Shown here: positions 14,623-30,402 of the stretch, one piece after another
How the letters are laid out: each line of letters starts with the position of its first letter
Numbering within the stretch: position 1 is the first letter of the stretch
NCBI GenBank assembly: GCA_027451105.1
Contig: DAIDKB010000019.1
Span: 1 to 34,238, forward strand
From: a bacterium
Lineage (GTDB): Bacteria; Patescibacteriota; Saccharimonadia; Saccharimonadales; Saccharimonadaceae
DNA: 34,238 nt
Direction: 5' to 3'
Translations under genes and position numbers: made by a program
Notes under the pieces: generated by a model
Told to the model about the DNA's origin: nothing
Database searches by the model: none
Seen by the model: the letters and a program-made list of their open reading frames with translations, nothing else

Positions 14623-14699
14623 GCGGGTGTAGCTCAGTTGTTTAGAGCGCTTCCTTGCCAAGGAAGAGGTCGAGAGTTAGAGTCTCTTCACCCGCACCA
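14623..14699 (+). tRNA. tRNA-Gly(GCC), integration target of the island
   Basis: Class I tRNA of 77 bases with acceptor GCGGGTG/CACCCGC, D-arm GCTCAGTTGTTTAGAGC, anticodon arm CTTCC-TTGCCAA-GGAAG (anticodon GCC), T-arm GAGAG-TTAGAGT-CTCTT and encoded CCA. Its 3' part (14677 onward) is the left copy of the island's 24-base direct repeat, so insertion leaves an intact tRNA. Confidence 0.95.
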
Positions 14700-14700
14700 A
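14677..14700 (+). repeat. Left attachment core (attL) in tRNA-Gly
   Basis: 24 bases from the T-loop to one base beyond CCA, identical to 30403-30426. It also encodes, on the minus strand, the last seven residues and stop codon of the recombinase. Confidence 0.85.
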
Positions 14701-16392
14701 CAAGGATTGATCAAGTATTGGTCGATCTTTTTTTATCTTGAATAACTCATTTATCCCTGTTAAATCCCAAAAATTATTCGGTCCGTCGCTGGTTACAGAA
14801 GCAATTTCATCATAGGTTGGCGTTGTGTCAAAAATTACCCCGAAAAAGTCAGCTCTTTTAACTGGATCAATCTGTTGCATGATCAGTTGATCAATGTGTT
14901 GGAGAAAGTATTTGGCGTATTTCTTAACGACGTCAAAACTGATTGGTTGCTCAGCGTTTTTGCGCTCCTTTTCGCTAATGAGTTCTTCGATTTGTTGTTC
15001 GATTTTCATGAGGTCCTCCTCCATATACTTAATGACTGTTTGGCTGCTCAAAAGCTTTATCTTATCGACCGTAGCTAAAGCCTGAGCTCTCAGTGTGGTT
15101 AAGCGTGTTTCAATTGCAGCCTCGTCTTTACCGTCGTCCTTATGCCGCGTCTGCCAGACGGTCTCAAGAGCCTGCATGATGTCTTCAATATGGTCGTCGG
15201 CAAACGTGACATGGTTAACGAGGTTTTCAACGGCATCTTCAAGTTTTGCTTTGGGAACACGGAAATGATGACCGCGTTTGTTGCAGTGATAGCCAGGGTA
15301 ATACTGGTAACGGCCTTTAGCGGCACTGCCGAAAAACGGACGTTTGCAGATAGGGCAAGTAACGGCCTTACGATACGGGTATTCTGCACTATGCGATCCT
15401 TTGCGAAGTTGGAACTCAGGAGTATCACGTTTAGTGATTGTCACGACGCCATCTTGTTCGTCTAGCGTCAGTTTGCCATGGTTAGCGGCGTTAAAGGCAG
15501 CGAAGGTGATTAAACCTTCGAACTGCGCTTTAACTGGCTGATCTTCAGTCCACTTCTCGTGTATAACGCCGGCATAGATAGGATTAGCAATATAGAGCCA
15601 GAATCGCTTTAAACTAAGCTTGTTATTACCCATACGGGCAGTTATCTGGGTTTTGTCAGTATTAGCGCGTCGGTTATAGGTACGTGATACATACCCGAGC
15701 CTATTTATCTCATCAACGATTTGCTGATCACTTAAATTGCCCTGGATACGTAGCTCAAACATCTTCTCAATAAAGTATGCTTCTTCCGGAAGACGAACGA
15801 GCACGAGGCGTTTGCCGTTACTCGTCTCGACGCGACGGCTTGAGTAGCCAAATGGGGCACCCCGCATCCAGTAACCCATACGGGTGTATCGAACTTCAGC
15901 ACCGATCATGCGACTCATGATGTCACGTAACTCATCTTTGGCACGTTCGGCTTCTAGGAATTCCATCTTTTGACTTGGCGAGTATTCGCTCCAGCGATAT
16001 TTTACCCTTAAGTGCTCCAGCGTATTCACTTTTTGCTGACTGATTACGCCGTAGATATCAACGAGCTTCACACCGTACTTCTCGAGTTGCATTTTTAATT
16101 GGTCATAGGGCGTAGCACCACCTCTTGTAAAGCGGTCAATCGATTTAATAATGAACAGCTGAACATCATTCTTCGGGTCTTTGCAGTAGTTGATAGCTTG
16201 CTGCATTGGCTGGTTATCTTTAGAAGCGGATTCGAGAAATACAAATGTTTCTTTGAGGTTGATATTGTGTAGCTTTGCAAAGCTGGCAATTTGTTCTTTC
16301 TGTGCCTCGGGCGAATCTCCATCCGTACCTTGACGCACGGATGAAACGCGAATAGCAGCTACCGCATTTTCAGGTACTACGTAATCTAGCAT
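14677..16392 (-). CDS. Large serine recombinase (site-specific integrase)
   Basis: 571 residues. The N-terminal resolvase domain has the catalytic pattern R15-V-S17-S, with later S-I-D-R-F-T-R-G-G. A recombinase domain follows (about 180-300, with P-F-G-Y and P-I-Y-A-G-V). The zinc ribbon C-P-I-C ... Y-H-C lies near 340-375, and a C-terminal coiled coil (about 395-475) is typical of large serine integrases. The ATG is placed by GGAG 7 bases upstream and overlaps the upstream 63-residue gene by 23 bases, so the two are translationally linked. The stop codon lies inside tRNA-Gly: the last residues VRVKRL are encoded by the attachment core. Serine integrases rarely use tRNA genes, which are the usual targets of tyrosine integrases. 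Confidence 0.93.
   Translation of the reverse strand: MLDYVVPENAVAAIRVSSVRQGTDGDSPEAQKEQIASFAKLHNINLKETFVFLESASKDNQPMQQAINYCKDPKNDVQLFIIKSIDRFTRGGATPYDQLKMQLEKYGVKLVDIYGVISQQKVNTLEHLRVKYRWSEYSPSQKMEFLEAERAKDELRDIMSRMIGAEVRYTRMGYWMRGAPFGYSSRRVETSNGKRLVLVRLPEEAYFIEKMFELRIQGNLSDQQIVDEINRLGYVSRTYNRRANTDKTQITARMGNNKLSLKRFWLYIANPIYAGVIHEKWTEDQPVKAQFEGLITFAAFNAANHGKLTLDEQDGVVTITKRDTPEFQLRKGSHSAEYPYRKAVTCPICKRPFFGSAAKGRYQYYPGYHCNKRGHHFRVPKAKLEDAVENLVNHVTFADDHIEDIMQALETVWQTRHKDDGKDEAAIETRLTTLRAQALATVDKIKLLSSQTVIKYMEEDLMKIEQQIEELISEKERKNAEQPISFDVVKKYAKYFLQHIDQLIMQQIDPVKRADFFGVIFDTTPTYDEIASVTSDGPNNFWDLTGINELFKIKKDRPILDQSLLVRVKRL
14705..14735 (+). terminator. Terminator after tRNA-Gly, inside the recombinase gene
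   Basis: GATTGATC-AAGTATT-GGTCGATC with G-U pairs and a run of seven T. It is supplied by the island and lies within the antisense recombinase coding end. Confidence 0.65.
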
Positions 16393-16561
16393 CGCCTTGC
16401 TCCACTACTTGCCTTAATAATTTACCACCAGTTTGCTGGTCTTCAATAATACGATCAATGATAAGATTGGCGAGAACGAAAAGCTTCTCTTCGGTAGGTA
16501 AGGAGGTATACATCGGCACTTCTGCCGAGTTTTTGTTCTTTGAGCCTTTTGTTCGTGCCAT
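16370..16561 (-). CDS. Small basic protein preceding the recombinase
   Basis: 63 residues with an N-terminus MARTKGSKNKN rich in Lys/Arg, like a DNA-binding tail, followed by a mostly helical acidic region (EEKLFVLANLIIDRIIEDQQTGGKLLRQVVEQ). I recognise no named family. It is the first gene of the recombinase operon and overlaps it by 23 bases. By position it could be a recombination directionality factor or an accessory or regulatory protein; this is inference only. The start ATG at 16559-16561 lies downstream of the twin palindromes. Confidence 0.65.
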   Translation of the reverse strand: MARTKGSKNKNSAEVPMYTSLPTEEKLFVLANLIIDRIIEDQQTGGKLLRQVVEQGDARLRST

Positions 16562-16580
16562 GTATTACTACCCCTGTTAT

Positions 16581-16598
16581 CTATACGTCTGCGTATAG
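16581..16598 (+). promoter_or_regulatory. Operator palindrome 1 of the recombinase promoter
   Basis: CTATACG-TCTG-CGTATAG, perfect 7-base arms around a 4-base centre. It lies just downstream of the recombinase -10 region on the minus strand. Confidence 0.7.
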
Positions 16599-16602
16599 TA
16601 TA

Positions 16603-16620
16603 CTATACACGCTTGTATAG
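16603..16620 (+). promoter_or_regulatory. Operator palindrome 2, filling the -35/-10 spacer
   Basis: CTATACA-CGCT-TGTATAG, the same architecture as palindrome 1 and centred 22 bases away, two helical turns. On the minus strand it occupies exactly the 18 bases between TTGTAA (-35) and TATACT (-10), so a bound dimer would block RNA polymerase. The cognate regulator is unknown; the divergent 16860 gene or the 63-residue protein are candidates. Confidence 0.7.
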
Positions 16621-16859
16621 TTACAAGGGGTAATCTTACTATTTTAGGGCTAAGACTGTGGATAACTGCCCTATTCTCATTGTGTTTAAGATTGTCCCCA
16701 TGGGCGGTGACACTTTACTAGTATTCTTAAGGTGATATAGTGAATATATCGTATCCTGTACCTATTAAATAAACGGAGTAGGTGGGGATAGGCATAATAG
16801 TACATTGCTCAACTACCAAAACCACAAAACTACACAACAACCATAGCGACACTACTCAT

Positions 16860-17639
16860 ATGACACTACCTACAATCACCAATAAGCAACAACAAATAAT
16901 ACGCCTTCTATATAGACATAGATTCTTAGACAGAAAACAAATTCAAACACTACTACAACACAAAGACAAAAGGCGTATTATTACTTGGCTTAAAGACCTA
17001 AGAGAAAAACAGTACGTACTGTGGATATATGACGGGGATGATTTTGCGGCTAAAACAAAACCAGCAATATATTATATCGGACTTGCCGGCATACGGTATC
17101 TAAAGACGACAGGCGATTACCCGACACTTGAACTACGCAAGCGCTACAAGGAAGCCGGACGAAAGCAGTCATATATCAGCAGATGCCTGTTAATCGCAGA
17201 TTGTTGCATAGCTCTAGACGATAAAGCAAAGACCAGCCAAAGCCTACGGTATGCGTATGTAACAGAAGCTGATTACTCTGACCTCGATTCGACGTATAAC
17301 CCACTTCTAGGCGAACTGAAGCCTCACCTGTATTTTACGAAAGATGACAGTAACTCTAACACTACATACGTCATGGAGTTATTCGACGCTTTACTGCCGC
17401 GCTATCAGGTGAGAAAAAGACTGAGTGAATATGTGGAATATTTGAAAGATAAAAAAGCAGACGCTTCGAACCTAGTCGCGCTGCTTGCTTTCTCGAGTAC
17501 GGCAGACTTGCTGTATGCCAAGCGAAGGCTGCGCTTGCTGCTTGAAGATGACGACGAAAACGAGCTTATTGTCAGGCTAACACTCATCGATAAAATCAAA
17601 AAAGACGGCATCACAAGTGAGATCTGGGAAGAAGTATAG
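16860..17639 (+). CDS. Replication-relaxation family protein
   Basis: About 259 residues from ATG 16860. The N-terminal winged-helix region (TNKQQQIIRLLYRHRFLDRKQIQTLL, key pattern L-L-x-x-H-R-F-L-x-x-x-Q-I) and the following R-R-I-I-x-W-L-x-x-L, Y-Y-I-G-L-A-G-I-R-Y-L and later sensor-like region match the replication-relaxation (Replic_Relax) family. These are found on Gram-positive plasmids and conjugative elements, with an incompletely understood role in plasmid replication or DNA processing. An in-frame GTG at 16782 would add a 26-residue extension unlike the family, so I prefer 16860, although no Shine-Dalgarno sequence is visible. It is divergent from the recombinase operon across the twin operators. 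Confidence 0.72.
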   Translation: MTLPTITNKQQQIIRLLYRHRFLDRKQIQTLLQHKDKRRIITWLKDLREKQYVLWIYDGDDFAAKTKPAIYYIGLAGIRYLKTTGDYPTLELRKRYKEAGRKQSYISRCLLIADCCIALDDKAKTSQSLRYAYVTEADYSDLDSTYNPLLGELKPHLYFTKDDSNSNTTYVMELFDALLPRYQVRKRLSEYVEYLKDKKADASNLVALLAFSSTADLLYAKRRLRLLLEDDDENELIVRLTLIDKIKKDGITSEIWEEV

Positions 17640-17674
17640 CGTAATAGCTAAATTTCTGTCAGCAACATTAAAAA

Positions 17675-17702
17675 GCCCGGAAGCCACGCATGACTTCCGG
17701 GC
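17675..17702 (-). terminator. Terminator of the DUF3768 gene
   Basis: 9-bp stem GCCCGGAAG/CTTCCGGGC with a minus-strand TTTTTAAT tail. It sits between two convergent genes and may also slow plus-strand readthrough. Confidence 0.85.
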
Positions 17703-17708
17703 CTATCT

Positions 17709-18023
17709 TTAATACTCCTCGGCTAACATCACCGTTAAGGTTCGGTTACAATCCGGACTGAGCGGATCACACCAGTACTGCAACTGCTTGTCGTAGTAAT
17801 CTATTTTCCAGAATACTTTCTGCCCCTCAAAGCTCAACGAGCCGAAATCATGCTCTCCGTGCGGATCATTATCTTCAGTAAATTTACTGAAGCTTTCTAT
17901 TCTTCGGGAAAGCTCGATGAGATCCATAATCCCATCACGTATACCACTTGTGTAGAACACGTTAAGACACATCCCCCGGAATCTGTCGTTTATCTTTGCT
18001 ATATCACTAACTTGAGTTTCCAT
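17709..18023 (-). CDS. DUF3768 family protein
   Basis: 104 residues. The family pattern is clear: I-x-x-x-N-D-R-F-R near 10-17, then F-x-x-F-x-x-D-N-D-P-H-G-E-H-D-F-G (about 45-62), F-W-K-I-D-Y-Y-D (about 70-77) and a C-terminal L-T-V-M-L-A-E-E-Y. The function of DUF3768 is unknown; to my knowledge it is mostly seen on plasmids and accessory regions of Proteobacteria. It may therefore be a transferred cargo gene here. The start is set by AGGAGG 5 bases before the ATG, a much stronger ribosome site than most genes in this window have, supporting foreign origin. Confidence 0.82.
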   Translation of the reverse strand: METQVSDIAKINDRFRGMCLNVFYTSGIRDGIMDLIELSRRIESFSKFTEDNDPHGEHDFGSLSFEGQKVFWKIDYYDKQLQYWCDPLSPDCNRTLTVMLAEEY

Positions 18024-18349
18024 GAAACCCTCCTTTACATTCTGAGAGGGCTTTCTGCCTCTCTGTCTAGAGGCGACGGGCTGCGACGAACAGGGTCAAG
18101 CTGGAGCGCCCCTTGACGTTTACCAATGGGACGAACGACCTTGATGCGGTTCGTTCACCCCGTATAATGAAAAGACAGAGGAAGGAAGTCTATTATTAAG
18201 CTATGGAGATTAGTAACCAAATACTACCTTGAACTATGAATTCGGGATGTACGCTGCCAACACATACGTAAAGAACGTTATTAAATAAGAGCCGGAAGAA
18301 TCATAGGCTGGCGCAATACGTCAAGCTGTAGCATACAGGGACATACCGC
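18024..18349. other. Non-coding stretch upstream of the pilin cluster
   Basis: No credible gene. It holds an imperfect inverted repeat GAACGACC...GGTTCGTTC (about 18133-18156) overlapping a promoter-like pair TTGATG and TATAAT (spacer 16; -10 near 18162-18167) reading toward the pilins. Any transcript from it would start about 210 bases before pilin 1 and could be a leader or small RNA. Confidence 0.4.
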
Positions 18350-18378
18350 TTGCGCTTGCGGGGGGGGGGTGCTATATT
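18350..18378 (+). promoter_or_regulatory. Phase-variable promoter of pilins 1-2
   Basis: TTGCGC (18350-18355) and TATATT (18373-18378) are separated by exactly 17 bases, 10 of which are the G tract. A change of one G would move the spacing to 16 or 18 and alter promoter strength, as in known poly-G or poly-C spacer promoters of Neisseria. Transcription would start at or within a base or two of the ATG at 18385. Confidence 0.65.
18360..18369 (+). repeat. Homopolymeric G10 tract
   Basis: Ten consecutive G in the -35/-10 spacer of the first pilin promoter. Tracts of this length are prone to slippage. Confidence 0.95.
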
Positions 18379-18384
18379 ACAAGC

Positions 18385-18879
18385 ATGCCCAAGCCGCCAA
18401 CCAAACAACACGGTTTTACTATTGTTGAACTACTTATAGTTATTGTAGTTATCGGTATTTTGGCCGCTATTACTATCGTGGCATATAGTGGTATTCAAGA
18501 CCGCGCCAAATATGCGCGCGAGCAGTCAGATATGAGCAGTTTAAACAACTTGATTCAAATGTACTATGCTGCTAACGGTTCGTACCCTAATTCGGGCAGC
18601 AGCTTGTGGGTCGGATTTTCCCAGGCTGCTAATTTCATACCCGGTATTGTACCAGCGCTTGCGCCGAGTATGCCACAAATGCCAAGCGACCCAGATTCTA
18701 ATAATTCTTATATCTATCGCTCAGACGGTGTGGACTATAAATTGATTCGGTATTCTGGGGCAGCCGGCTTGCCAGCTCCTGAGCGAACCAATAATGCTTT
18801 AGCGGATCCAATGCGAAATCCAAGCAACGCCGCCAACGGTGCCTGGGGGTACTGGAGTAGTGGAGGAGTCAGTTGGTAG
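18385..18879 (+). CDS. Type IV pilin 1
   Basis: 164-residue prepilin. A short basic leader MPKPPTKQHG is followed by the cleavage site G|F and the hydrophobic helix FTIVELLIVIVVIGILAAIT with Glu at mature position 5. The helix continues as IVAYSGIQDRAKYAREQSDMSSLNNLIQMYYAANGSYP, the usual alpha-1 spine and first loop. The variable globular part is Gly/Ser/Pro-rich and lacks the C-terminal disulfide loop seen in pilins 2, 4, 5 and 6. With the present G10 tract the promoter spacing is optimal, so this gene and pilin 2 look ON. Assembly would depend on pilus machinery encoded elsewhere. Confidence 0.88.
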   Translation: MPKPPTKQHGFTIVELLIVIVVIGILAAITIVAYSGIQDRAKYAREQSDMSSLNNLIQMYYAANGSYPNSGSSLWVGFSQAANFIPGIVPALAPSMPQMPSDPDSNNSYIYRSDGVDYKLIRYSGAAGLPAPERTNNALADPMRNPSNAANGAWGYWSSGGVSW

Positions 18880-19481
18880 TTGTGTTGAGAAAAAATAAAC
18901 AAGCTAAACACTTTGGTTTCACGATTGTCGAGCTCCTCATCGTTATTGTCGTCATCGGCATCCTAGCCGCTATTACAATAGTGGCATATAACGGGATACA
19001 GCAAAGGGCACGCAACGCGCAGACGATTTCGGCGGCGCATGACTATCTCACCGCATTTCAAGGTTATCTGGCTCAAAACGGCAGCTATCCGCCGGTTGCA
19101 TCTGGGGGATATTGGTGTCTAGGACAGGAGGCTGTTTCTTGCACGGTGGCGACAGCTAATTGGGGACGCAGTGCCCCTCTTGAATCGGCCCTGCAGACTG
19201 TTATCACCCGGTTACCGCTTCCGAGTAACGGGCCGGGAACAGCTAGTACAAATGATCCAGACATGGGCTATATCTCTGCTAGTGTTTCCACGGCGTACCC
19301 CTTTCTTAACGGTGTCAACTCCAGCTTCCTAATTTATATTCTAGAAGGTGACACCTCTTGTCCTGTCGGACCTGTTGCTTCCGGTGGCTGGCCCAACTTT
19401 TCGACGGCTGCCCCAACGGGCGGGCGGACATATTATGCGAATGGCGTGTCGACCTGCTGGGTTCCACTACCAGCCAGTTAG
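18873..19481 (+). CDS. Type IV pilin 2
   Basis: 202-residue prepilin with leader VVVLRKNKQAKHFG| and the conserved FTIVELLIVIVVIGILAAIT helix. The start TTG at 18873 is supported by GGAGGAG at 18862-18868, 4 bases before it, and overlaps the end of pilin 1 by 7 bases, so translation is coupled. GTG 18882 is the alternative. The globular part has a C-terminal cysteine pair (D-T-S-C-P ... V-S-T-C-W-V-P-L-P) like the D-loop of type IV pilins. Because it lacks its own promoter, its expression should follow the G-tract state of pilin 1. Confidence 0.85.
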   Translation: MVVVLRKNKQAKHFGFTIVELLIVIVVIGILAAITIVAYNGIQQRARNAQTISAAHDYLTAFQGYLAQNGSYPPVASGGYWCLGQEAVSCTVATANWGRSAPLESALQTVITRLPLPSNGPGTASTNDPDMGYISASVSTAYPFLNGVNSSFLIYILEGDTSCPVGPVASGGWPNFSTAAPTGGRTYYANGVSTCWVPLPAS

Positions 19482-19501
19482 TTTTACCAAGTATATGATC
19501 A

Positions 19502-19530
19502 TTGACCTTATACCACTCATGCTTCATAAT
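19502..19530 (+). promoter_or_regulatory. Promoter of pilin 3
   Basis: TTGACC (19502-19507) and CATAAT (19525-19530) with a 17-base spacer, five of six matches in each box. The ATG at 19544 is 13 bases past the -10 box, giving a very short leader. Confidence 0.6.
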
Positions 19531-19543
19531 TCGACTTAAAGTT

Positions 19544-20618
19544 ATGCAGTACTTAAAGTCACATACTATAATCAACCACCTTACCTATTTAAGTTCGAGA
19601 CTAGGTAACTCTCTCTCTCTCTCGACGCGCTGCGTATAGACGCCATCAGCTAAAGTCACAACCACAGCCAGGTTTCACGATCGTCGAACTCCTCATAGTC
19701 ATCGTCGTAATAGGTATTCTGGCCGCTATTACTATCGTTGCCTACAATGGTATCCAAGGCCGGGCTATTGCAGCTACCTTGCAGTCGGATCTAGACGGTG
19801 CCTCTAAACAGTTAAAACTCTACCAAGTAGACAATAGCGCTTATCCGACATCTAATGACTGTAGCGCCAGTCCGGCAGCTGGCAGTATTTGTCTGAAGGC
19901 TAGTGGTAGTACTACCTATACTACAATGAACGTTAATAACTCCGCTACTCCGCAGACGTTCTGTCTTACCGCTACCAACGGTTCTACGAATTACTATCTT
20001 AATCAGGACGGAACACCGGCCAGTGGTGGATGTGCGGTGACAAACCTAGTAGCGAACCCGAGTATGGAGACGGATGCAACATCTTGGTCTTATCGCTGGT
20101 ATGGTGGTGGTGCTAGTGCCGGTACAAATACGAGAGGTACAAACGGTGGTTTCTCGGGAGGTGCTTATTTACGCAAGACTTGGACTACTAGTGGTATTGG
20201 TCAAGACAATGGGTTTAATACATACGCAATCTCTGTCACTCCAAATGCAGTTTATACGGCATCTGGTTATATGCGGACAAATCGAAGTGATGTGATTGTT
20301 CGTGTTGGATATCAGTGGTTAGACTCGTCCGGGACTATTATCACGTCTTTGTTCACAGGAGCCCAGGCGACACTAGTATCAAATACCTGGAGCAGAATTC
20401 AGATGACTGCTACCGCACCATCAAACGCGGCGTCTGTAGATTTAATATTTTCTAACGCATCGTCACCTGTCTCTTGGGCCGTAGGTGATACTTTTGATGT
20501 CGACGCCGCAATGTTCACATCTGGTCCTGCTGCCTATGTCTACGCTGACGGCAATTCACCAAGCTGGAGCTGGAACGGCACTACCAACGACTCTACTTCA
20601 ATTGGACCACCGCTCTAG
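19544..20618 (+). CDS. Type IV pilin 3 with carbohydrate-binding-like domain, phase-OFF
   Basis: The pilin frame is open from 19605 to 20618 but has no start codon in that frame: TAG at 19602 closes it upstream. The only open upstream frame starts at ATG 19544, runs through the CT tract and stops at 19637. Adding one CT unit (or losing two) joins them into a 358-residue prepilin with a basic leader ending QPQPG|, then FTIVELLIVIVVIGILAAIT. After the spine and first loop, residues from about 165 (NLVANPSMETDATSW) to the end form a beta-rich domain. Its N-P-S-M-E-T start, Y-x-x-S-G-Y and V-D-A-A-M-F elements resemble CBM4/9-type carbohydrate-binding modules. This suggests a sugar-binding adhesive pilin. 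Confidence 0.75.
19609..19623 (+). repeat. CT dinucleotide tract in pilin 3 leader
   Basis: 15 bases, seven and a half CT units, inside the leader reading frame. It encodes alternating Ser-Leu when translated. Confidence 0.95.
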
Positions 20619-20649
20619 CTAACGGTCTAATCCTAGCATTTCGATAGCT

Positions 20650-20678
20650 GCTTATGCTAAAATAGTGCCAACTATGAA
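20650..20678 (+). repeat. Duplicated promoter-start module, copy 1
   Basis: 29 bases identical to 21954-21982. It contains an extended -10 box (TGC-TAAAAT, -10 at 20658-20663) and the ATG of pilin 4. The ATG is 10 bases after the -10 box, giving an almost leaderless transcript. No good -35 box is visible, in keeping with the extended -10. Confidence 0.85.
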
Positions 20679-21265
20679 GTCACTACGCTATCGAGAGAGA
20701 GAGAGAGAGTAGCCTAAGCCCCCTCAGCCATGGTTTCACTATCGTCGAACTCCTCATAGTCATCGTAGTAATAGGTATTCTGGCGGCTATTACAATCGTG
20801 GCGTACAACGGTGTACAACAACGGGCTAGCAATACCGCTATTATTGATTCCGCAAGTAGCTCTTTTAAGATGATTGAATCATACATTGCAGTCAGCGGAA
20901 CATACCCGGACTCAAATTATGCCTGTATAACCACTACCGCGGGGTGTAGTCTGACAGGGACAAACACAACATTTAATACCAACATGGCGACTATCGGTAC
21001 ACTGCCAAAAAGTGTGCCTATTTCTGGACCTGATCGCTATGGGCTACAGTACTTATATGACTCAACTAGGACCTTTAATGGGGCCCCGCAACCGGCCGTA
21101 TTACTTTATTGGCTTAGTGGTATTAATCAACAGTGCAGCGTATCTGGAGTGACGAATCCTACATTTGGAGCGCTGGTTTCCTCTACTACTGGCTATACTG
21201 ATGGTAATGATGCCTCGACGGGTAAGACGTTATGCACTATTAATATTCCTGGGCCGAGTACATGA
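20674..21265 (+). CDS. Type IV pilin 4, phase-OFF
   Basis: From ATG 20674 the current frame gives only MKSLRYRERERE and stops at TAG 20710, right after the GA tract. The pilin frame is open from 20678 to 21265 but contains no start codon before the helix. One more GA unit (or two fewer) fuses them into a 197-residue prepilin with leader ending SSLSPLSHG| and FTIVELLIVIVVIGILAAIT. The globular domain ends with a cysteine pair (Q-Q-C-S-V ... K-T-L-C-T-I-N-I-P). Its stop overlaps the start of pilin 5 as ATGA, so in the OFF state pilin 5 should lose its coupled translation too. Confidence 0.78.
20693..20709 (+). repeat. GA dinucleotide tract in pilin 4 leader
   Basis: 17 bases, eight and a half GA units, encoding alternating Arg-Glu. 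It directly follows the conserved leader start. Confidence 0.95.
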
Positions 21266-21798
21266 TTATGAAGACACGCGGCTTCACCATCGTCGAACTC
21301 CTCATAGTCATCGTAGTAATAGGTATCCTAGCTGCTATTACTATTGTTGCCTATAGCAATGTACAGTCGAATGCTAGAATCGCGGCAGATATCGCTAATG
21401 TAGATAGTTATGTTAAAGGACTAGAGCTGATAAAGGTAAGTACTGGTTCACTACCGACTGTCAATGGATGCTTAGGCCCTTTGTCGACTTACCCTGCGGC
21501 TACGGGAAACTGTCCTAACGGAGGTCAGAGTGCTACTAATACCGATTCGGCTGCATTGAACGCGCAGTTATACAGTTTTGGCGTTAAAGACGTAACGCTT
21601 ACAGCGCTACCAGGGGCCACTATTATATATTCCTATGGCTTTTACGGTAATCCGTACACGATAATTTATACGCTGCCCCTTGCGGCACAGAGTTGTGGGT
21701 TGAATAATGTGCTTTCAGGCTCGGGTTGGACTATGAACGGAGATCCTTATTCTTTTAAAAACTCAAATTTAACTTTTTGTGCAGTTTCGATTCCATAA
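21262..21798 (+). CDS. Type IV pilin 5
   Basis: 178-residue prepilin with a very short leader MIMKTRG| and the conserved FTIVELLIVIVVIGILAAIT helix. The start ATG 21262 overlaps the stop of pilin 4 by 4 bases; ATG 21268 is an in-frame alternative. It has no promoter, repeat tract or good Shine-Dalgarno sequence of its own, so it should depend on translation of pilin 4. The globular part has G-x-L-P-T-V-N-G-C-L-G, similar to pilin 6, and a C-terminal cysteine loop (A-Q-S-C-G ... L-T-F-C-A-V-S-I-P). Confidence 0.83.
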   Translation: MIMKTRGFTIVELLIVIVVIGILAAITIVAYSNVQSNARIAADIANVDSYVKGLELIKVSTGSLPTVNGCLGPLSTYPAATGNCPNGGQSATNTDSAALNAQLYSFGVKDVTLTALPGATIIYSYGFYGNPYTIIYTLPLAAQSCGLNNVLSGSGWTMNGDPYSFKNSNLTFCAVSIP

Positions 21799-21820
21799 AG
21801 AGACAGTGCTCCTTATATAA

Positions 21821-21922
21821 CACAGGGTTCAATCCTTATACAACTACTCTGACGGTAATAGTCTTAACTGGATTTGGGATGGTACTGTTGACGACTCAAC
21901 CTCTACCGGGTCGCCATTATAG
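21821..21922 (+). pseudogene. C-terminal remnant of a carbohydrate-binding pilin
   Basis: The frame ending at TAG 21920-21922 encodes YSDGNSLNWIWDGTVDDSTS followed by TGSPL. This matches the last residues of pilin 3 (YADGNSPSWSWNGTTNDSTS, then IGPPL). No upstream coding part remains; a frameshift or truncation lies near 21818-21838. The distance from this stop to the next -10 box is 40 bases, the same as behind pilin 3. It is the scar of a second pilin-3-like gene lost by rearrangement. Confidence 0.75.
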
Positions 21923-21953
21923 CCGAGGAGGTAACCATAGTATTCTGATACAT

Positions 21954-21982
21954 GCTTATGCTAAAATAGTGCCAACTATGAA
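21954..21982 (+). repeat. Duplicated promoter-start module, copy 2
   Basis: 29 bases identical to 20650-20678, with the extended -10 TAAAAT at 21962-21967 and the ATG of pilin 6 at 21978. Confidence 0.85.
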
Positions 21983-22590
21983 ATCACTGAGCTATCGAGA
22001 GAGAGAGAGAGAGAGAGAGTAGTCTAACTCCAATCTTCCTGTACCGTAAGTCTACTCATCGTTCATATCCTGGTTTCACTATTGTTGAACTACTTATTGT
22101 CATAGTTGTTATTGGTATCCTGGCTGCTATTACTATTGTTGCCTACAATGGAATTCAACAAAGAGCGTACAACGCAAAAGTTGTATCTGGCGCGAACGCT
22201 TATATCAAGGCGTTTTACGAGTATAAAGCGGTTAACGGGACTTATCCGTCGGTAGGAGGTTGCCTGGGGGCGAACTATCCTAATAATGCTTGCTGGGCTA
22301 ATAGTCCAGACGGTACGAGCCCAGTGATGACCGTCAGCTCCACACTTGATGCTAGTTTGAGCGAGTTTGTGAAAAGTAAACCCGATGCCGGCACGAACCT
22401 TATTAATATTGTAATTGTAAACGAATATAGGGGTGGCGCGTTTTATTATGCAACTGGAGTGGCTTACTCCACTAATGCGCCTTTAGTGGGGTATTATCTG
22501 GAAGGTAATAATGCAAACTGTTCGATGAATGTTTCTCAGCAGACTAACGAGGGGCCTTTGACACAGTGTCTTATAGCTTTACCTCAGTAA
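21978..22590 (+). CDS. Type IV pilin 6, phase-OFF
   Basis: ATG 21978 gives MKSLSYRERERERE and then TAG at 22020, directly after the GA tract. The pilin frame is open through 22590 without a start codon before the helix. One extra GA unit would make a 204-residue prepilin with leader SSLTPIFLYRKSTHRSYPG| and FTIVELLIVIVVIGILAAIT. The globular domain contains G-T-Y-P-S-V-G-G-C-L-G and a C-terminal cysteine pair (N-A-N-C-S-M ... L-T-Q-C-L-I-A-L-P). It is the last gene of the array and a single-gene unit. Confidence 0.78.
21997..22019 (+). repeat. GA dinucleotide tract in pilin 6 leader
   Basis: 23 bases, eleven and a half GA units. It is three units longer than the pilin 4 tract, exactly two codons, so both are in the same phase. 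Confidence 0.95.
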
Positions 22591-22882
22591 TGATATTGTT
22601 TAAGCAGCTAAGCAAATAGCTGAGAAATTAAATGCATAGTTCTTATCTTATGAAAATGCAGTCCATTTTGGTTCAAATAAATCAGAAACCCTAGAATTGT
22701 TGAGCGATATTTTATTAGAATATTCTTCCTGAAACATATCCACTATCCCTAGCCAAAGACAAGTTTCCAACCTTCCTAGGTTTATTCAATAAAAAATAGA
22801 GATAATAAAGTAGGCTTCGTGGTGGAGGCCTTTGGGAGAGTCTGTGTGAGCGTGTTCTTTTGATCACGATGGAACTAAATAG
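22591..22882. other. Non-coding stretch after the pilin array
   Basis: No convincing gene and no clear terminator for pilin 6. Its second half (about 22810-22906) is diverged from, but alignable with, 31628-31723 upstream of the related gene at 31787. Confidence 0.4.
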
Positions 22883-22908
22883 TAAGTGGTATACTATTCT
22901 CATACAGC
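22883..22908 (+). promoter_or_regulatory. Shared promoter module, copy 1
   Basis: 26 bases identical to 31700-31725, containing a TATACT -10 box at 22890-22895; similarity continues through the leader. No convincing -35 box. The leader of about 70 bases before the gene at 22968 is long for this genome. Confidence 0.6.
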
Positions 22909-22967
22909 CTAAACTACCTTGGCGGCATGGTTATTAAAAAACCAATCCACTAAATAAGAAGGAACTT

Positions 22968-23735
22968 ATGGACAAACAAGACCACAACCATATCAACAGT
23001 GTTAAAGCCAGGCCATTGAAGAGCACTACGGCTTCATCAAGCGACAATATGCTTTTTAGTCCTAGCGAGCTGAAACAAATGCACCATAGCGAGAAGCTAT
23101 CGAAGATTCTCAAGATTGCCATTCCTTGTTTACTTGTTACTGTTATAGGAACAACTACTTATGCCCTACAGGGTAAGGTAAACCATCTACCAGATAATTA
23201 CTCAGTCGTTACTAGTGGCAATAGTAGTCAATTAAGTGTCCCAGCTTCTACTAATACTGGCAGTAGCCAATCGAGTGTTCCAACCCCTAGTAGAACTAGC
23301 GAGTCAACGAACCCAGCTTCAACAGATAGTCAAACTACCAATGACTCTAGTCTACAGGCTCAGTTGAATGCAATTCAGGCTCAAGCTACGGCTTCCGTGA
23401 ATGAAGCTGATGCTCAGGCGAATGCTAACGCAGCGCAGGCTGAGGCATCTATTCAGGCTAATAACGCCGCCATAGCACAAGAACAAGCTCAGGCGACGGC
23501 TGATTTAGCTAATGCTAATAGCACCGCCGTGACACCAGCCGAACAAGCCTCAGCCGCAGCCAGCGCGGCACGCCTCCAGTGTATTGCTCAAGCCATTGGA
23601 CAACTTTCGGCAGCTAATGACCAGCTAGATACACAAGCTGGCACAAGGGGCTTCAATGCTGTCGGTACGGTGAACGCGCAGGCTGATATCCAAAATCAGC
23701 TCACAAGCAGAATCGCCAGCTGTAACAACCAATAG
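22968..23735 (+). CDS. Membrane-anchored Ala/Gln-rich coiled-coil surface protein
   Basis: 255 residues, no known family. Residues 1-16 (MDKQDHNHINSVKARP) match the start of the protein at 31787. One transmembrane helix lies at about 48-67, followed by a Ser/Thr/Pro-rich linker (about 75-125) and a long Ala/Gln-rich helical region (about 128-200, with repeated A-Q-A and N-A-N-A), which should form a coiled coil outside the cell. A cysteine pair (C about 203 and C about 252) may close the C-terminal part. The start is supported by AAGGA 4 bases before the ATG. It follows the pilin array and may be a surface adhesin or stalk; the role is inferred. Confidence 0.7.
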   Translation: MDKQDHNHINSVKARPLKSTTASSSDNMLFSPSELKQMHHSEKLSKILKIAIPCLLVTVIGTTTYALQGKVNHLPDNYSVVTSGNSSQLSVPASTNTGSSQSSVPTPSRTSESTNPASTDSQTTNDSSLQAQLNAIQAQATASVNEADAQANANAAQAEASIQANNAAIAQEQAQATADLANANSTAVTPAEQASAAASAARLQCIAQAIGQLSAANDQLDTQAGTRGFNAVGTVNAQADIQNQLTSRIASCNNQ

Positions 23736-23770
23736 TTATTTTTTACGTGAATGCTATAATAAAAAATATA

Positions 23771-23812
23771 ATGGATACAAACTCGAATCAAGATAAAGGT
23801 GTTGCATGGTAA
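23771..23812 (+). CDS. 13-residue leader peptide upstream of the 23806 gene
   Basis: ATG 23771 lies 10 bases after an extended -10 box (TGC-TATAAT at 23755-23760) and encodes MDTNSNQDKGVAW. Its stop overlaps the next start (ATGGTAA). This arrangement would couple translation of a leaderless mini-ORF to the following gene, whose own AAAGG ribosome site lies within the mini-ORF. There is no homology support. Confidence 0.4.
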   Translation: MDTNSNQDKGVAW

Positions 23813-24099
23813 ACACGCTGTATGCGTTAGCTATTTTATTAAGTGTATTAGGGTTTGGTTCTGCTACTTCTGGTTCTACTTCTACTTCTTCTGTTTCTGA
23901 CCTATCCTTGTTCCTAGGGATTTTCTTATTCGTTTTGGCATTTATCATAGATAATAACAAACAGAAGGGTGAACGGGCGCAGTTTCTAATGATGTCTCGG
24001 GAGGACGCAGAAATATATATAAACAATACAAAAAATCCACAGTTACGAATTAAATTAGTAAAGGATTGGCAAAATCATCACATTTCAACAAAATTATAA
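23806..24099 (+). CDS. Small two-helix membrane protein
   Basis: 97 residues, unrecognised. Two hydrophobic segments (about 3-20 and 33-49) flank a Ser/Thr-rich loop (SATSGSTSTSSVSD). The C-terminal half is charged and probably cytoplasmic (DNNKQKGERAQFLMMSREDAEIYINN...). The start ATG 23806 is preceded by AAAGG with 6 bases of spacing. It lies between the coiled-coil surface protein and another small membrane protein and could belong to the same envelope-associated set. Confidence 0.6.
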   Translation: MVNTLYALAILLSVLGFGSATSGSTSTSSVSDLSLFLGIFLFVLAFIIDNNKQKGERAQFLMMSREDAEIYINNTKNPQLRIKLVKDWQNHHISTKL

Positions 24100-24189
24100 A
24101 CGAAGCGATGATAAGGGTAGTAAAGTTATTAATATGAGCAAATGCTTCTATATCAACATAACTAATCTCAAGTGGTCCAGGTAGCTCGT

Positions 24190-24522
24190 ATGGGTGATGA
24201 AGAATTCCCCAGGATTAATACCGGTAATGGCTTTCAGAATGACCTAATAGCCACGACCAACGATCGAATCAAGAAACAAGTGCTGGTAACTAGAGAGCTG
24301 CACGCTGCAGTGACAACGCTAGATAACTCGATTAAAGCGTTCAATGCGGAGTCCTTGGATCAGACTGATAAGTTAATTAAGCTCACGAAATCCATCAGGT
24401 TATTGAATATCGAGACCTCAAAGCAGACAAGTAAGTTGATTAAACTGACAAAGTGGGTAGTAATGCTCACGGTCGTACTCGTGATTGGGTTGATTATCCA
24501 ACTAGCTCTTAGTTTTAAATGA
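24190..24522 (+). CDS. Tail-anchored coiled-coil protein
   Basis: About 110 residues from ATG 24190 (a GTG at 24172 is an alternative start). The middle is heptad-like with an internal duplication: T-D-K-L-I-K-L-T-K-S and T-S-K-L-I-K-L-T-K-W about 23 residues apart. One C-terminal transmembrane helix (VVMLTVVLVIGLIIQLAL) ends five residues before the stop, the layout of a tail-anchored protein or a small secretion-system subunit. No family is recognised. It faces the coupling-ATPase gene convergently with an 84-base gap that lacks a clear hairpin. Confidence 0.6.
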   Translation: MGDEEFPRINTGNGFQNDLIATTNDRIKKQVLVTRELHAAVTTLDNSIKAFNAESLDQTDKLIKLTKSIRLLNIETSKQTSKLIKLTKWVVMLTVVLVIGLIIQLALSFK

Positions 24523-24606
24523 GTTATTAACTAAAGGTTTGTCCTGTTGAGGGAGTTATATACGGAAAGATAGATGGCTATCCTGACTAGATATGAGACT
24601 GCCTTG

Positions 24607-27291
24607 CTAAACATTGTGCATAACCTTATTGCTATCACCCTTCACACTCTTGGCTCTACTAGCTTTTCGTACGGGCTTGGTTGAATCCGAACCAAACAAC
24701 GACTCCATATATTTTTCAACCTCCGCTTTAGGTGTACTGTATGTAGCTCTGCTATAAGAGACGACGGTTTTCATCGTCTCATCAGAGCCGGTGACATCAA
24801 GCTGTATTGTCTGTCCGGAAAAAGCTTCCTCACTGACATCGCCGCTGGTCTTCATATAGAAGTGATAAGGCTCAAGATTCACTATATCGCCCGTTTTAAC
24901 CTCGGGTTTCATGTAGGGTAGAATAAATGCTTCATCATCTGGACTGGCTTTTAAACAGATCATCGTAGCGGCGTTGCCGGCTACGATCTTAACAACGCTC
25001 TTGTCTTCGATTTGAGCTATATTCTGATGAGATACGATCAGTGAAACATGGAACTTACGCCCTTCGCTGGTTATTTCTGAAAATCTCGGCGTGGCAAAAT
25101 TCTGAAATTCGTCGACATAGACAAAGAAATCCCGTCGCTTGTCTTCCGGGATCTTTGTGCGCTGGTAAGCGGCCATCCAGATGAATGATGTCAGAATGGT
25201 GCCGAAGAAAAAGCTTTGATCTTCGCCGATATCGCCCTTGGACAAGTTAACCAACAATATCTTGCCTTCGTTCATAACGTCACCAATCCGCACGGTGCTT
25301 TTTTCTTGCATCAGAATATGCCTGGACATCTTCGAGGTAATAAAATGACCCAAGCGATGCGTTAGTGGCGCAGTGGCACTCGACATCTGCATACTGCCAA
25401 GTAATTTGAACTCTTTTTCCCAAAATTGCTTGAGGACAGGGTCTTTCAGACTCTTGGCAACTTCCTTCTGGTATTTCTTATCTGTCAGTAATCGTTGCAA
25501 GGTATACAGGCTCGGGTTAGGTGTTTGTAACGCCGTCAAAGTAGCGCTACGCAAGATATGCTCCATCCGTGGGCCCCATTGTTTCTCTTCGGAAAGCTTG
25601 GCGAATATTGAGAGGACTGTACTGGTAATCCACTCCTGCCTATCGTCATCGTCCTCAAAATCGATGCCAGGATTAAGGATGTTAAGCCCTATCGGGTTTT
25701 CTCGGTCGGATGGGTCAAAGACGATCACGTCTTTTTGTCGGTGTTCAGGCACGATCCGAAGAAGTTCTCGAAACATATCTCCGTGTGGATCGAAGACGGC
25801 TACGCCTTTGCCATTTTCCATATCTTGGTAAATGGAATTCATAAGGAGCGTTGTTTTACCCGTACCAGTCTTGCCGATAACATAGGTATGCTTTTGACGT
25901 TGCGGTAGCGTCATACCAATAGGCGACCTCTTGCCATCAAATTCGTTGACACCGACCACTATGTCGAACTGCGAGTTGTCGCCTTTAAGCGACAATGGGG
26001 CGGGAAGCTCATGGCTGCGATTCTTAATGAGACCCTCTGTTTTGGTCAGGGCGGTATTAGGGAAATGATACAAGTCAGATAATTCGGAGCTGGAAACAAT
26101 CGTCGGTTTGCTGATAACGTGAGGAGACAATACTCGCTGTTTAAATCTTGCCAGGTTTTTACTGCCAGGCGAAAATAACGGTATGTTTTTCCGGACACTA
26201 ATCGATTGGCGCAAGCTAGAGAATGGCTGAAACGATGAGACGATGGCCTCAACCCGACTTCCAATAGCATTAGCGTCAGGTGAAGCGACTAGTATACGCA
26301 TCGATACCTCAAATTGGTATTGGTCTATTTTTTGTTTAATCAAAGTGCCCAACTCCAATTCATACGGATTCGAACCAGGTGACCGACCATGAGATGATTT
26401 TGGCAAGTCGTTGGTGGAAAAGGCGATGAATACATAAGAAATAACCTTCGCGATCAATGTCAGTATGAAGAACGGTAGGACCACTAATTTAAACAGAATA
26501 CCTAGAATATTTATGTTGTGAGCATTAAGCTGCGACGACAAATCTTTGCTAAGCGCAATCCGGTTTCGAATGTTTTGTTCTCTCCGCACGACGACACTAT
26601 GCGTGTTCTTTAAAACTGGTACGGCTACAATCTGGAATGCGACAAGTTCGCCCGAAGCAAGACTACGCATATGCCCAGTCAAATAAGATGTCGGGTCATG
26701 TTCGGCTAGCGCCTTATTGTCTTCTAGTGGCAATATATAATCGCTCTTAAACGCGAGCTCGACAACACCGACTGATGAACCGGATAGTTCTGTCAGATAA
26801 TCCTCCGTCTCTTCGACCTTGAGACCAGGTAGGAATGACAGAAGAGTCCTTCTTATCGTTTCTACTTCCCCGGCGGGAACCATCGTGACGTATCGTATGC
26901 CATTGTCTCTAGTGGCAACCAGTTCTAAAGAATATGGTTGTTTACGTCCAGCTAGTCGTTCCCAGAAACCGCGATATTTTACAAGATCACGCATAATGAT
27001 ATGTAGTTGCTCAGTAGCATAGGCCGACTTGGACGTATCGGTCGGAAAGGTCATACGTAAAAAGGTGTACGTAATCTCCCGCTTACCGACGCCGAAGAGC
27101 CTTAGTAGAAAAGCGGTGAAAACTCGAGTTTGCCGCACGGCCTTTACCACAAGCAAAATGATAATGTAGGCAATGCTACACTCGATAAGTAAAGCGCCGA
27201 TGATAATAACCAGTGTCAATCCCGCATTTAAATGATGCTCTACGGTGTAACGAGCCGGGCCATTTATGATAATATCTAAAAAGTTTTGCAT
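24607..27291 (-). CDS. TraG/VirD4-like coupling ATPase (type IV secretion DNA-binding)
   Basis: 894-residue membrane ATPase. Transmembrane segments lie at about 25-50 and 258-290. The motor domain has Walker A GKTGTGKTT near 473-481, FDPHGDMFREL, and Walker B VYVDEFQNFATP near 722-733, then a C-terminal L-I-V-S-H-Q-N-I-A-Q motif as in TraG/TraD recognition domains. Coupling proteins hand DNA to a conjugation channel; related Patescibacterial ATPases of this type may serve other secretion roles. It is the strongest sign that the island can be moved between cells. No relaxase is recognisable nearby unless the 16860 protein acts as one. Confidence 0.82.
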   Translation of the reverse strand: MQNFLDIIINGPARYTVEHHLNAGLTLVIIIGALLIECSIAYIIILLVVKAVRQTRVFTAFLLRLFGVGKREITYTFLRMTFPTDTSKSAYATEQLHIIMRDLVKYRGFWERLAGRKQPYSLELVATRDNGIRYVTMVPAGEVETIRRTLLSFLPGLKVEETEDYLTELSGSSVGVVELAFKSDYILPLEDNKALAEHDPTSYLTGHMRSLASGELVAFQIVAVPVLKNTHSVVVRREQNIRNRIALSKDLSSQLNAHNINILGILFKLVVLPFFILTLIAKVISYVFIAFSTNDLPKSSHGRSPGSNPYELELGTLIKQKIDQYQFEVSMRILVASPDANAIGSRVEAIVSSFQPFSSLRQSISVRKNIPLFSPGSKNLARFKQRVLSPHVISKPTIVSSSELSDLYHFPNTALTKTEGLIKNRSHELPAPLSLKGDNSQFDIVVGVNEFDGKRSPIGMTLPQRQKHTYVIGKTGTGKTTLLMNSIYQDMENGKGVAVFDPHGDMFRELLRIVPEHRQKDVIVFDPSDRENPIGLNILNPGIDFEDDDDRQEWITSTVLSIFAKLSEEKQWGPRMEHILRSATLTALQTPNPSLYTLQRLLTDKKYQKEVAKSLKDPVLKQFWEKEFKLLGSMQMSSATAPLTHRLGHFITSKMSRHILMQEKSTVRIGDVMNEGKILLVNLSKGDIGEDQSFFFGTILTSFIWMAAYQRTKIPEDKRRDFFVYVDEFQNFATPRFSEITSEGRKFHVSLIVSHQNIAQIEDKSVVKIVAGNAATMICLKASPDDEAFILPYMKPEVKTGDIVNLEPYHFYMKTSGDVSEEAFSGQTIQLDVTGSDETMKTVVSYSRATYSTPKAEVEKYMESLFGSDSTKPVRKASRAKSVKGDSNKVMHNV

Positions 27292-27552
27292 GCGGGCGCC
27301 TTTCTAGGATACATAACACCTGAAGCACCCGCACCTTGCCATGAGTCGCGTATCTGAGAATATAATAACACCTTGAGCGCAGAATATTGCAATAATACTA
27401 TTATATTGTAAAATAATCAGCTTATGTTTAAAACGTGCAGTATCGTTAAGTAGTCATAACGTGTATTGATAACGTGTTAGTTAATTTAGTTGTCGATTAC
27501 CTTAAGGATGTTGATCAGGTAACTATTCAGGAACTAATAGCTAGTTAATTCC
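27292..27552. other. AT-rich non-coding stretch upstream of the coupling ATPase
   Basis: No gene seen. It probably holds the ATPase promoter on the minus strand. AT content is clearly higher than in neighbouring regions, and this AT-rich character continues to about 29450, suggesting a separate origin for that segment. Confidence 0.4.
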
Positions 27553-27584
27553 GTTCTAACTTTCACCAAAGTACTGTACCAAAA
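27553..27584 (+). repeat. Cassette-boundary direct repeat, copy 1
   Basis: GTTCTAACTTTCACCAAAGT followed by ACTGTACCAAAA. Copies 2 and 3 are at 28200 and 29137. It lies upstream of the 27717 gene. Confidence 0.8.
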
Positions 27585-27600
27585 CGAGATTTATGAATTT

Positions 27601-27620
27601 AGAACCGTTAATCCGGTTCT
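27601..27620 (+). promoter_or_regulatory. Palindrome upstream of the 27717 gene
   Basis: AGAACCG-TTAATC-CGGTTCT, perfect 7-base arms; a likely operator or hairpin about 100 bases before the gene. Confidence 0.5.
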
Positions 27621-27716
27621 ATTTCTTTGTTACAAAATAGGGCATTTTGACACTCTATCTGTTATTTGGTTCTAACCTCGATTGTTATTTGCTACCTGTA
27701 AGCACATAATATAAAT

Positions 27717-28178
27717 ATGGAACGTAAGTTACTTAGGGTACCACTTTATATCTGGATCATACAGATTGTCTATGTCATTGTCTCGTTAAGCTTACTATTG
27801 TTCTTGTTGCAGAGCATGACTGTCGGCTCAGTGTCGTTCTGGGGACGTAAACTGTTCATCATTGTTTTTGTCGTCGTGATGCTGGCTGCAAATGTGTTAT
27901 GGAGATTGTTGATTCGTAAGAAGAGAAATGTTCTAACGGTAATAGTTATCCTTTTCGCCTTCTTGCTAAACAGTGTGGTCGCACAAGTCTTTACGCTCAG
28001 AAGTGCACATAGTAGTTTTGATAACTACTATCATTTCAGAGGTTGTGTTCAACTCATTACTAAATCTGACACTGAAGCAACATGCAAACTCGCGTCTGGT
28101 GAAACGATAAAGATCGTAGACTATAAGGACGAGTGGTATCTTGATGGAGACTTACCGAATAGCTCATTTGGTTTTTAG
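27717..28178 (+). CDS. Hypothetical three-helix membrane protein
   Basis: 153 residues, unrecognised. Three hydrophobic segments (about 9-32, 43-63 and 73-93) are followed by a polar C-terminal domain of about 55 residues with two cysteines (F-R-G-C-V-Q and A-T-C-K-L), which would lie outside the cytoplasm if the N-terminus is inside. The ATG directly follows an AT-rich -10-like sequence (TAATAT), suggesting a leaderless message. It sits between two copies of a 30-base direct repeat, as if it were a cassette. Confidence 0.6.
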   Translation: MERKLLRVPLYIWIIQIVYVIVSLSLLLFLLQSMTVGSVSFWGRKLFIIVFVVVMLAANVLWRLLIRKKRNVLTVIVILFAFLLNSVVAQVFTLRSAHSSFDNYYHFRGCVQLITKSDTEATCKLASGETIKIVDYKDEWYLDGDLPNSSFGF

Positions 28179-28199
28179 AAAAGCTAGACTGACAACTCA

Positions 28200-28231
28200 G
28201 TTCTAACTTTTACCAAAGTGCTGTACCAAAA
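28200..28231 (+). repeat. Cassette-boundary direct repeat, copy 2
   Basis: GTTCTAACTTTTACCAAAGT followed by GCTGTACCAAAA, starting 21 bases after the stop of the 27717 gene. Confidence 0.8.
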
Positions 28232-28276
28232 TTATTATGCTTGCGTTACGTTCTGATATGAAGATACTTAATTCAT

Positions 28277-29143: not shown

Positions 29144-29164
29144 CTTTTACCAAAGTGCTGTGCC
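29137..29164 (+). repeat. Cassette-boundary direct repeat, copy 3
   Basis: GTTCTAACTTTTACCAAAGT followed by GCTGTGCC. It overlaps the last seven bases, including the stop, of the nucleotidyltransferase gene. Confidence 0.8.
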
Positions 29165-29241
29165 GTATTCTCGACTTGCAAACAACAAATTAAAATATGC
29201 TTGTTATATTTAATCCACCGAATACGTTACAATATATGTAA

Positions 29242-29454
29242 ATGATAGACAATCAAGATAAGGCGATTGCTAAACGGATTAAACAGTACCGTAAACAAAG
29301 CGGTCTGACTCAAGTTGCCCTAGCTGAAAAAGCAGGAGTAGCCCCAAACACGGTTGCAAGGTTGGAACGTGGCATACATAAGGCATCGTCACTAACTATC
29401 GAGAAATTGTCGAAAGCTCTAGGTGTCAAAGCCTCAGATATCCTCGATTATTGA
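29242..29454 (+). CDS. XRE-family HTH transcriptional regulator
   Basis: 70 residues, a single Cro/CI-type helix-turn-helix domain. The core is L-T-Q-V-A-L-A-E-K-A-G-V-A-P-N-T-V-A-R-L-E-R-G (about 22-44), then S-L-T-I-E-K-L-S-K-A-L-G-V. A TACAAT box at 29228-29233 lies 8 bases before the ATG, so the message is probably leaderless. It may repress itself or the nucleotidyltransferase gene upstream, or act as an island regulator. Its end overlaps the convergent 29448 gene by 7 bases. Confidence 0.88.
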   Translation: MIDNQDKAIAKRIKQYRKQSGLTQVALAEKAGVAPNTVARLERGIHKASSLTIEKLSKALGVKASDILDY

Positions 29455-29654: not shown

Positions 29655-29669
29655 ATTATTTCCATTGTA

Positions 29670-30152: not shown

Positions 30153-30231
30153 TGTTGTCATCCTCCTGGTTCAGGTAATATACTTCATCGTCTACCAAAA
30201 CGACGCCAAGGTTAGCTAGTTTACTCTGCAT
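30139..30231 (-). CDS. Possible 30-residue ORF overlapping the PLD gene start
   Basis: ATG 30231 encodes MQSKLANLGVVLVDDEVYYL and ten more residues, and it contains the ribosome site of the PLD gene. The frame stays open upstream past GTG 30282 into the ACCA-terminator at 30283, so this may be the tail of a gene truncated there. No homology is recognised. Confidence 0.35.
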   Translation of the reverse strand: MQSKLANLGVVLVDDEVYYLNQEDDNNALV

Positions 30232-30398: not shown

Positions 30399-30402
30399 GA
30401 GC

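Follow-up and report, generated by a model that had tools for sequence, protein, structure and literature searches.

The third of six tandem type IV prepilin genes (P1 to P6) in the window, by which we mean the whole 34,238-nucleotide stretch of DNA that was analysed, is very probably a phase-variable (contingency) gene switched by slipped-strand mispairing, with the CT and GA repeat tracts found in such genes acting as phase switches. Between its start codon and an intact gene body lies a tract whose repeat unit is not a multiple of three nucleotides. The sequence-only reading of this DNA had pointed to such variation in P3, and the frame arithmetic, the start codon and the existence of relatives in both states uphold it; that the gene switches within one population, and that the pilin is made when in frame, is what we infer from these features.

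The array occupies positions 18385 to 22590 on the plus strand of a contig belonging to a 919-kb genome. Each of the six genes carries the G|FTIVELLIVIVVIGILAAITIVAY motif and scores above the Pfam cut-off for N_methyl (6/6), and the basic leader, the G|F site, the glutamate at +5 and the hydrophobic helix identify the products as type IV prepilins with a class III signal peptide. A prepilin peptidase (PF01478) above cut-off is encoded elsewhere in the same genome (G000:C36). A usable in-frame start is present in P1 (18385-18879; N_methyl 1.6e-8, T2SSG 2.9e-5), whose coding part is free of tracts, in P2 (18873-19481), whose open frame overlaps the end of P1, and in the tract-free P5 (21262-21798), whose start overlaps the stop of P4. 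P3, P4 and P6 lack such a start; these are the three genes whose cleaved leader contains a CT or GA tract, and in the assembly each of them is OFF. Their tracts are the only long CT/GA tracts in the window and share the same out-of-frame phase. In each case, an ATG stands shortly behind a -10-like box and its frame is open into the tract, while the pilin frame is open from the tract onwards and differs from that of the ATG.

In P4, the start codon and first leader part (MKSLRYR..., 20674-20692) are followed by a GA17 tract (20693-20709) and by the remainder of the gene (20710-21265); the corresponding parts of P6 are 21978-21996 (MKSLSYR...), a GA23 tract at 21997-22019 and 22020-22590, all on the plus strand. 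Over 170 bases that span promoter, leader start and GA tract (20540-20709 for P4, 21844-22013 for P6), the two genes are 74% identical, and this switch module seems, from its sequence, to have been duplicated together with its gene. The P1 promoter (TTGCGC-17-TATATT, 18350-18378, plus strand) contains a G10 tract (18360-18369), which makes up the greater part of the 17-base spacer that separates TTGCGC (18350) from TATATT (18373). Since a change of one G would alter this spacer, P1-P2 may vary in transcription, and the tract is a possible transcriptional phase switch beside the translational ones. The array would thus hold four repeat-bearing units, P1-P2 (probably through the poly-G spacer), P3, P4-P5 and P6. 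That each genome keeps exactly one pilin ON finds no support beyond chance.

The P3 promoter was claimed to have the form TTGACC-17-CATAAT (19502-19530, plus strand), and a base-by-base check places TTGACC at 19502-19507 and CATAAT at 19525-19530 with a spacer of 17; promoter matches in the region as a whole are at chance level (8 found versus 8.6 expected), with no excess of consensus promoters in the pilin array. The ATG at 19544-19546, 13 nt downstream of the -10 box, opens the first leader part (19544-19608), after which come the CT tract CTCTCTCTCTCTCTC at 19609-19623 (CT15, 7.5 units) and the remainder of the gene at 19624-20618, all on the plus strand. As had been noted from the letters alone, a TAG at 19602-19604 and a TAA at 19606-19608 shut two frames, the sole frame open into the tract starts at ATG 19544, and the distance from this ATG to the prepilin motif equals 1 modulo 3, so that adding 2 bases or removing 4 restores the frame. 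In assembly GCA_027451105.1 the remainder is out of frame with the ATG, and reading on from the ATG meets a TAG about six codons past the tract. The G|F site that had been predicted is present in the cleavage motif G|FTIVELL at 19671 and is joined to a basic leader only in the ON frame. A 15-base CT tract did not occur in any of 100 dinucleotide-preserving shuffles of the window, and its appearance there by chance is therefore unexpected.

Downstream of the tract, the remainder of P3 encodes an arginine-rich leader segment (RRAAYRRHQLK), the cleavage motif, the pilin helix (N_methyl) and a C-terminal domain of carbohydrate-binding type that matches CBM_4_9 (Pfam, 1e-5); the 315 codons that follow the cleavage site remain intact. 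AlphaFold models P3 with moderate confidence (mean pLDDT 64.9); the model has a long N-terminal helix and resembles PDB structures of carbohydrate-binding modules from families 16, 22 and 4. These fold matches support the Pfam match and prove nothing alone; binding of a glycan of a host or partner cell by P3 is a reasonable suggestion on the basis of the domain match and the model.

In the mechanism that we propose, translation of P3 would start at ATG 19544 behind its own promoter and would have to cross the CT tract to reach the prepilin, and slipped-strand mispairing at replication would add or remove CT units. One in three tract lengths would put the prepilin in the frame of the ATG (ON); at the others, translation would end at a stop just past the tract (OFF). 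Because the tract lies in the leader that is cut off by prepilin peptidase, its length leaves the mature pilin unchanged. GA tracts would serve P4 and P6 in the same way, and the poly-G promoter spacer probably P1-P2, giving four separately switchable type IV pilin units on one integrated mobile element.

To place this locus among its relatives, 394 genomes of this Saccharibacteria family were scanned for the tract-plus-prepilin pattern, which was found in 11 of them, whereas a reversed control pattern gave no match in the same 394 genomes. A follow-up of the remaining tracts brought in a further genome (G005) and a second locus in G022. The tally used below comprises 26 independent tract-bearing prepilins from 11 genomes, with one pair of near-identical loci (G140/G129) counted once. 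The richest genome, G023, has eight tract prepilins, six of which are arranged in tandem; one tract is interrupted, the others run unbroken for 17 to 35 bases, and most of the genes share the leader start ATGAAAAAGCGTG. Its tandem group (L053, G023:C10:92500-104500) consists of six prepilins with CT tracts of differing length, one in frame, the other two genes lying on other contigs. Several G023 leaders have a GTG 10 bases past the ATG in another frame, so that a start is possible in two of three frames; likewise, the ATGs before the tract stand in different frames at L059, L060, L062 and L127, where two of three tract lengths might be ON. Moreover, three contig ends of a near-complete genome (G009:C2, C3 and C7) begin within a P3-like pilin, which suggests near-identical pilin copies that break assembly.

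The tracts of these loci look like translated sequence. Between tract and cleavage site, the pilin frame is open at 26/26 loci, whereas shuffled segments would lead one to expect 9.8 (a joint probability of about 2e-13 if the loci are independent, which the G023 paralogues are not fully), and both wrong frames are closed at 26/26. Stops in the wrong frames stand close behind the tract, at a median of 7 codons for the worst of the two frames compared with 17.5 in codon shuffles, as exemplified by GAGTAGCCTAA in P4 and CGATAAG in G023; such crowding is what a clean OFF state needs. A segment similar to RRAAYRRHQLK of P3 follows the CT30 tract of a relative (G010:C40, RRIARRRHQQLK).

These data bear on whether translation of P3 could instead begin past the tract at a non-standard codon, the CT tract being 5' untranslated region only. 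A start codon downstream of the tract had been named beforehand as the finding that would speak against the upstream ATG; it was looked for, and neither ATG, GTG nor TTG occurs in the pilin frame from tract to motif. The same holds for 18 other loci (19/26 in all, P3 included), where the start must consequently precede the tract. A start past the tract would suit the G140/G129 pair and a few other relatives, which have an ATG between tract and pilin, and a short MNRR-type leader is normal for prepilins. Set against this are the pilin frame open past the tract at every locus, the arginine-rich segment shared by P3 and G010:C40 as if translated, and an upstream ATG and promoter that are conserved and in frame in ON relatives. 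For P3 we reject a post-tract start, given the absence of a start codon there, and regard it as most unlikely.

The upstream start is further supported by two comparisons. In a genome of another genus (G116), the arrangement TTGACT-17-CATAAT-13-ATGCAG reproduces the promoter layout and spacing of P3, and a CT9 tract joins the ATG in frame to the prepilin, which is hence ON. In the same genus as the window, G010:C13 encodes a P3-like pilin (42% identical over 279 residues) in frame behind CATAAT and ATGCAG, with no tract. Both sequences back ATG 19544 as the start of P3, and the second indicates that the tract would be an insertion into a working leader, or was lost from one.

The placement of tracts across the genus is equally restricted. 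Among 28 genomes, every CT tract of at least 11 bases that ends in C before a purine lies at a prepilin start (15/15), in a scan that covered both strands and hence GA tracts too. Tracts ending in T before a purine, searched in 13 of the 28 genomes, lie at prepilin starts in 5/6 cases, the sixth being at a contig end in G006 and not at a prepilin. Both kinds pooled, 20/21 long CT/GA tracts in the genus stand at the start of a prepilin. This distribution decides against P3 being merely a decaying pseudogene, or its repeat length a product of misassembly, which we reject as the whole story and hold to be exceedingly unlikely: P3 is indeed out of frame in the consensus, and metagenome assemblies can get repeat lengths wrong, but random decay or errors would not put the tracts of a genus at prepilin starts. 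Nor do they fit the long intact frames seen behind the tract in P3 and at other tract loci, or the involvement of three separate tracts in the window, and a wrong repeat length would in any case leave the design of the switch in place.

A wider scan of 84,980 species yielded, outside Saccharibacteria, mostly 9-base tracts. These look unrelated to switching; in Stutzerimonas, for example, the tract precedes a GFTLIEIMVVVV gene with its own ATG past the tract. Leads outside Saccharibacteria with CT tracts of 15-18 bases before prepilin-like genes are L109 (Parcubacteria, VMFT01000042.1), L090 (JAJYZL010000030.1) and L097 (Planctomycetes CA13), the upstream ATG being out of frame in the first two. 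Viral contigs scanned with the tract patterns gave no match.

Tract length itself varies in nature. Two genomes of different species (G140 and G129) share a block of 20,308 bp that is 99.838% identical, with 29 substitutions and a single gap, and this gap consists of 4 bases (two CT units) in the pilin tract, 28 versus 24 bases long; a sampled 4-kb region elsewhere in the two genomes matches only piecewise at 70-92%. An upstream GTG shares the pilin frame in G140 but not in G129. As an ATG past the tract is available to this pilin as well, the pair is taken as evidence of tract instability and not for the switch. In this one pair, at a locus other than that of the window, tract length has changed faster than the surrounding sequence. 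MutS is absent from 28/28 genomes of the genus, while the same search finds it in 11/14 controls. Slippage on short repeats rises without mismatch repair, so that the tracts should be unstable, yet the P3 tract is short (7.5 units) and its slippage rate may be low.

Both in-frame and out-of-frame lengths occur among relatives, from one species to another. ON relatives are found in G012, G116 (two), G007 and one of the eight G023 loci, while P3, P4 and P6 of the window, most of G023 and G010 are OFF; some relatives have more than one possible start. Of 21 loci whose upstream ATGs agree, 5 are ON; the frame would be restored by one more unit (or two fewer) at 13 and by the loss of one at 3. The skew of 13 versus 3 has a binomial probability of about 0.02 if the loci are independent, which they are not. 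Together with the identical offset of P3, P4 and P6, it is not predicted by purely random slippage and counts against it; partial rescue by transcriptional slippage, a bias in the slippage or shared descent could account for it.

The same asymmetry is an argument for slippage of RNA polymerase or the ribosome (programmed frameshifting), in which the DNA length would stay constant and the out-of-frame gene would give a low, steady output. A 2-base slip on a dinucleotide repeat would re-pair perfectly, and the prevailing offset, shared by the three window genes, is the one rescued by one extra unit. DNA length does vary, however, in the near-identical element of G140 and G129, some relatives are in frame, and stops crowd directly past the tract; the lopsided offsets, moreover, are partly due to related paralogues. 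We consider such slippage very unlikely as the explanation of P3, and return to the reading of the tracts as DNA-level phase switches.

The array sits in an integrated element at 14677-30426, recognised by a serine recombinase, direct repeats at both ends and a tRNA-Gly target. The attL-like 24-bp repeat TTAGAGTCTCTTCACCCGCACCAA (14677-14700) lies at the 3' end of tRNA-Gly (14623-14699), and its exact attR-like copy at 30403-30426 bounds with it a 15.7-kb element. At 31269 stands a partial third copy, a hint of an older second insertion. The array is flanked on one side by the gene for a large serine recombinase (14677-16392, minus strand; Pfam Recombinase 8e-5), which ends in tRNA-Gly with its last codons inside the 24-bp repeat, is the sole recombinase recognised among the window proteins scanned and is 47% identical to that of the G140 element. 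On the other side, at the distal end of the element, lies a gene for a PLD-like protein (29670-30161, minus strand; 48% identical to G140, 78% to G005) that is common to related elements. Between them are genes for a Replication-relaxation protein (16782-17639, plus strand; PF13814, 1.8e-7) and for an ATPase resembling conjugative coupling proteins (TrwB/HerA; 24607-27291, minus strand; PF10412 2.2e-8, PF01935 1.2e-8; 35% identical to the G140 element, 64% to G005). A VirB4-like gene was not recognised among the ten window proteins scanned, in which the coupling ATPase and Replic_Relax were found, and the element may therefore be mobilisable and not self-transmissible.

Homologues of the window element's recombinase, DUF3768 protein, coupling ATPase and PLD-like protein occur in the G140 element, and the Replic_Relax family is present in both. 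The block shared by G140 and G129 encodes a serine recombinase, Replic_Relax, VirB4-like and VirB6-like proteins, a T4SS pilin, a coupling ATPase and a PLD-like protein, and from this gene content and its sequence it looks like a recently moved integrative conjugative element. It also encodes a reverse transcriptase (L065/L066; L189:14112-15272, minus strand). Tract prepilins near such element genes are found as well in G023:C10, G018:C2, G021:C71 and G005:C7, and element genes were not found on the examined stretches of G010:C13, G116:C11 and G023:C13.

In its working, the proposed switch resembles a well-known system. The opa genes of Neisseria carry CTCTT repeats in the region coding for the leader peptide, and slipped-strand mispairing there switches translation (PMC3960869). 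As in opa, a multigene family of surface adhesins would be turned ON and OFF at translation by a repeat in each leader-coding region (PMC3960869), which in the present case we deduce from sequence. Opa proteins are outer-membrane beta-barrels with a pentamer repeat, in contrast to the type IV prepilins with CT/GA dinucleotides found here on a mobile element of an ultrasmall bacterium without MutS. The likeness is one of working and not of homology, as Pfam finds prepilin and CBM_4_9 domains and no Opa. Expression of the type IV pilus also varies in Neisseria gonorrhoeae, where some OFF states of pilE are frameshifts with early stops (PMC4877100). Variation of pilE proceeds by recombination with silent copies, whereas every complete gene here has a leader repeat switch of its own. 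Site-specific inversion (the shufflon) varies the PilV tip of R64; here, whole prepilins would putatively be switched by repeats. Type IV pili matter for conjugation in R64 (PMC12102498), and the window resembles the IncI R64-type thin pilus in having type IV pilins on a mobile element.

Closer to the window in phylogeny, a study of the Saccharibacterium TM7x reports that its type IV pili, among them a minor pilin that carries an extra domain, have a part in host binding (PMC12206443). The window shares with TM7x a prepilin repertoire of the same phylum and minor pilins with extra C-terminal domains (PMC12206443), and it differs in that its pilins are cargo of an integrated element. Repeat tracts and phase variation are not mentioned in the passages searched of that paper (PMC12206443). 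A hypervariable repeat gene has been described in a Gracilibacterium (PMC6851277), and no report of phase-variable pilins in Saccharibacteria or Patescibacteria was found in the open-access journal literature searched. Switching of an adhesin family by leader repeats, the Opa strategy, is thus known; the novelty lies in its application to type IV prepilins, in Saccharibacteria and as a repertoire on mobile elements.

The question of how ultrasmall episymbionts recognise their hosts and move from one to another is still largely unanswered; in Saccharibacteria, type IV pili take part in host binding (PMC12206443). With somewhat less than even confidence, we tentatively propose that the cargo of mobile elements in Saccharibacteria includes adhesive type IV pilins that are phase-variable. 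Each cell would then display a random subset and could thereby engage different hosts or partners in conjugation, and the Candidate Phyla Radiation would possess a recognition repertoire that is driven by repeats and passed on horizontally. The mobile setting means that such a repertoire can spread between species. As any single assembly shows most tract pilins out of frame, they may be truncated or overlooked in annotation. A switchable repertoire of pilins, at least one of them with a domain of carbohydrate-binding type, offers a testable route to differences in host range within a clonal population.
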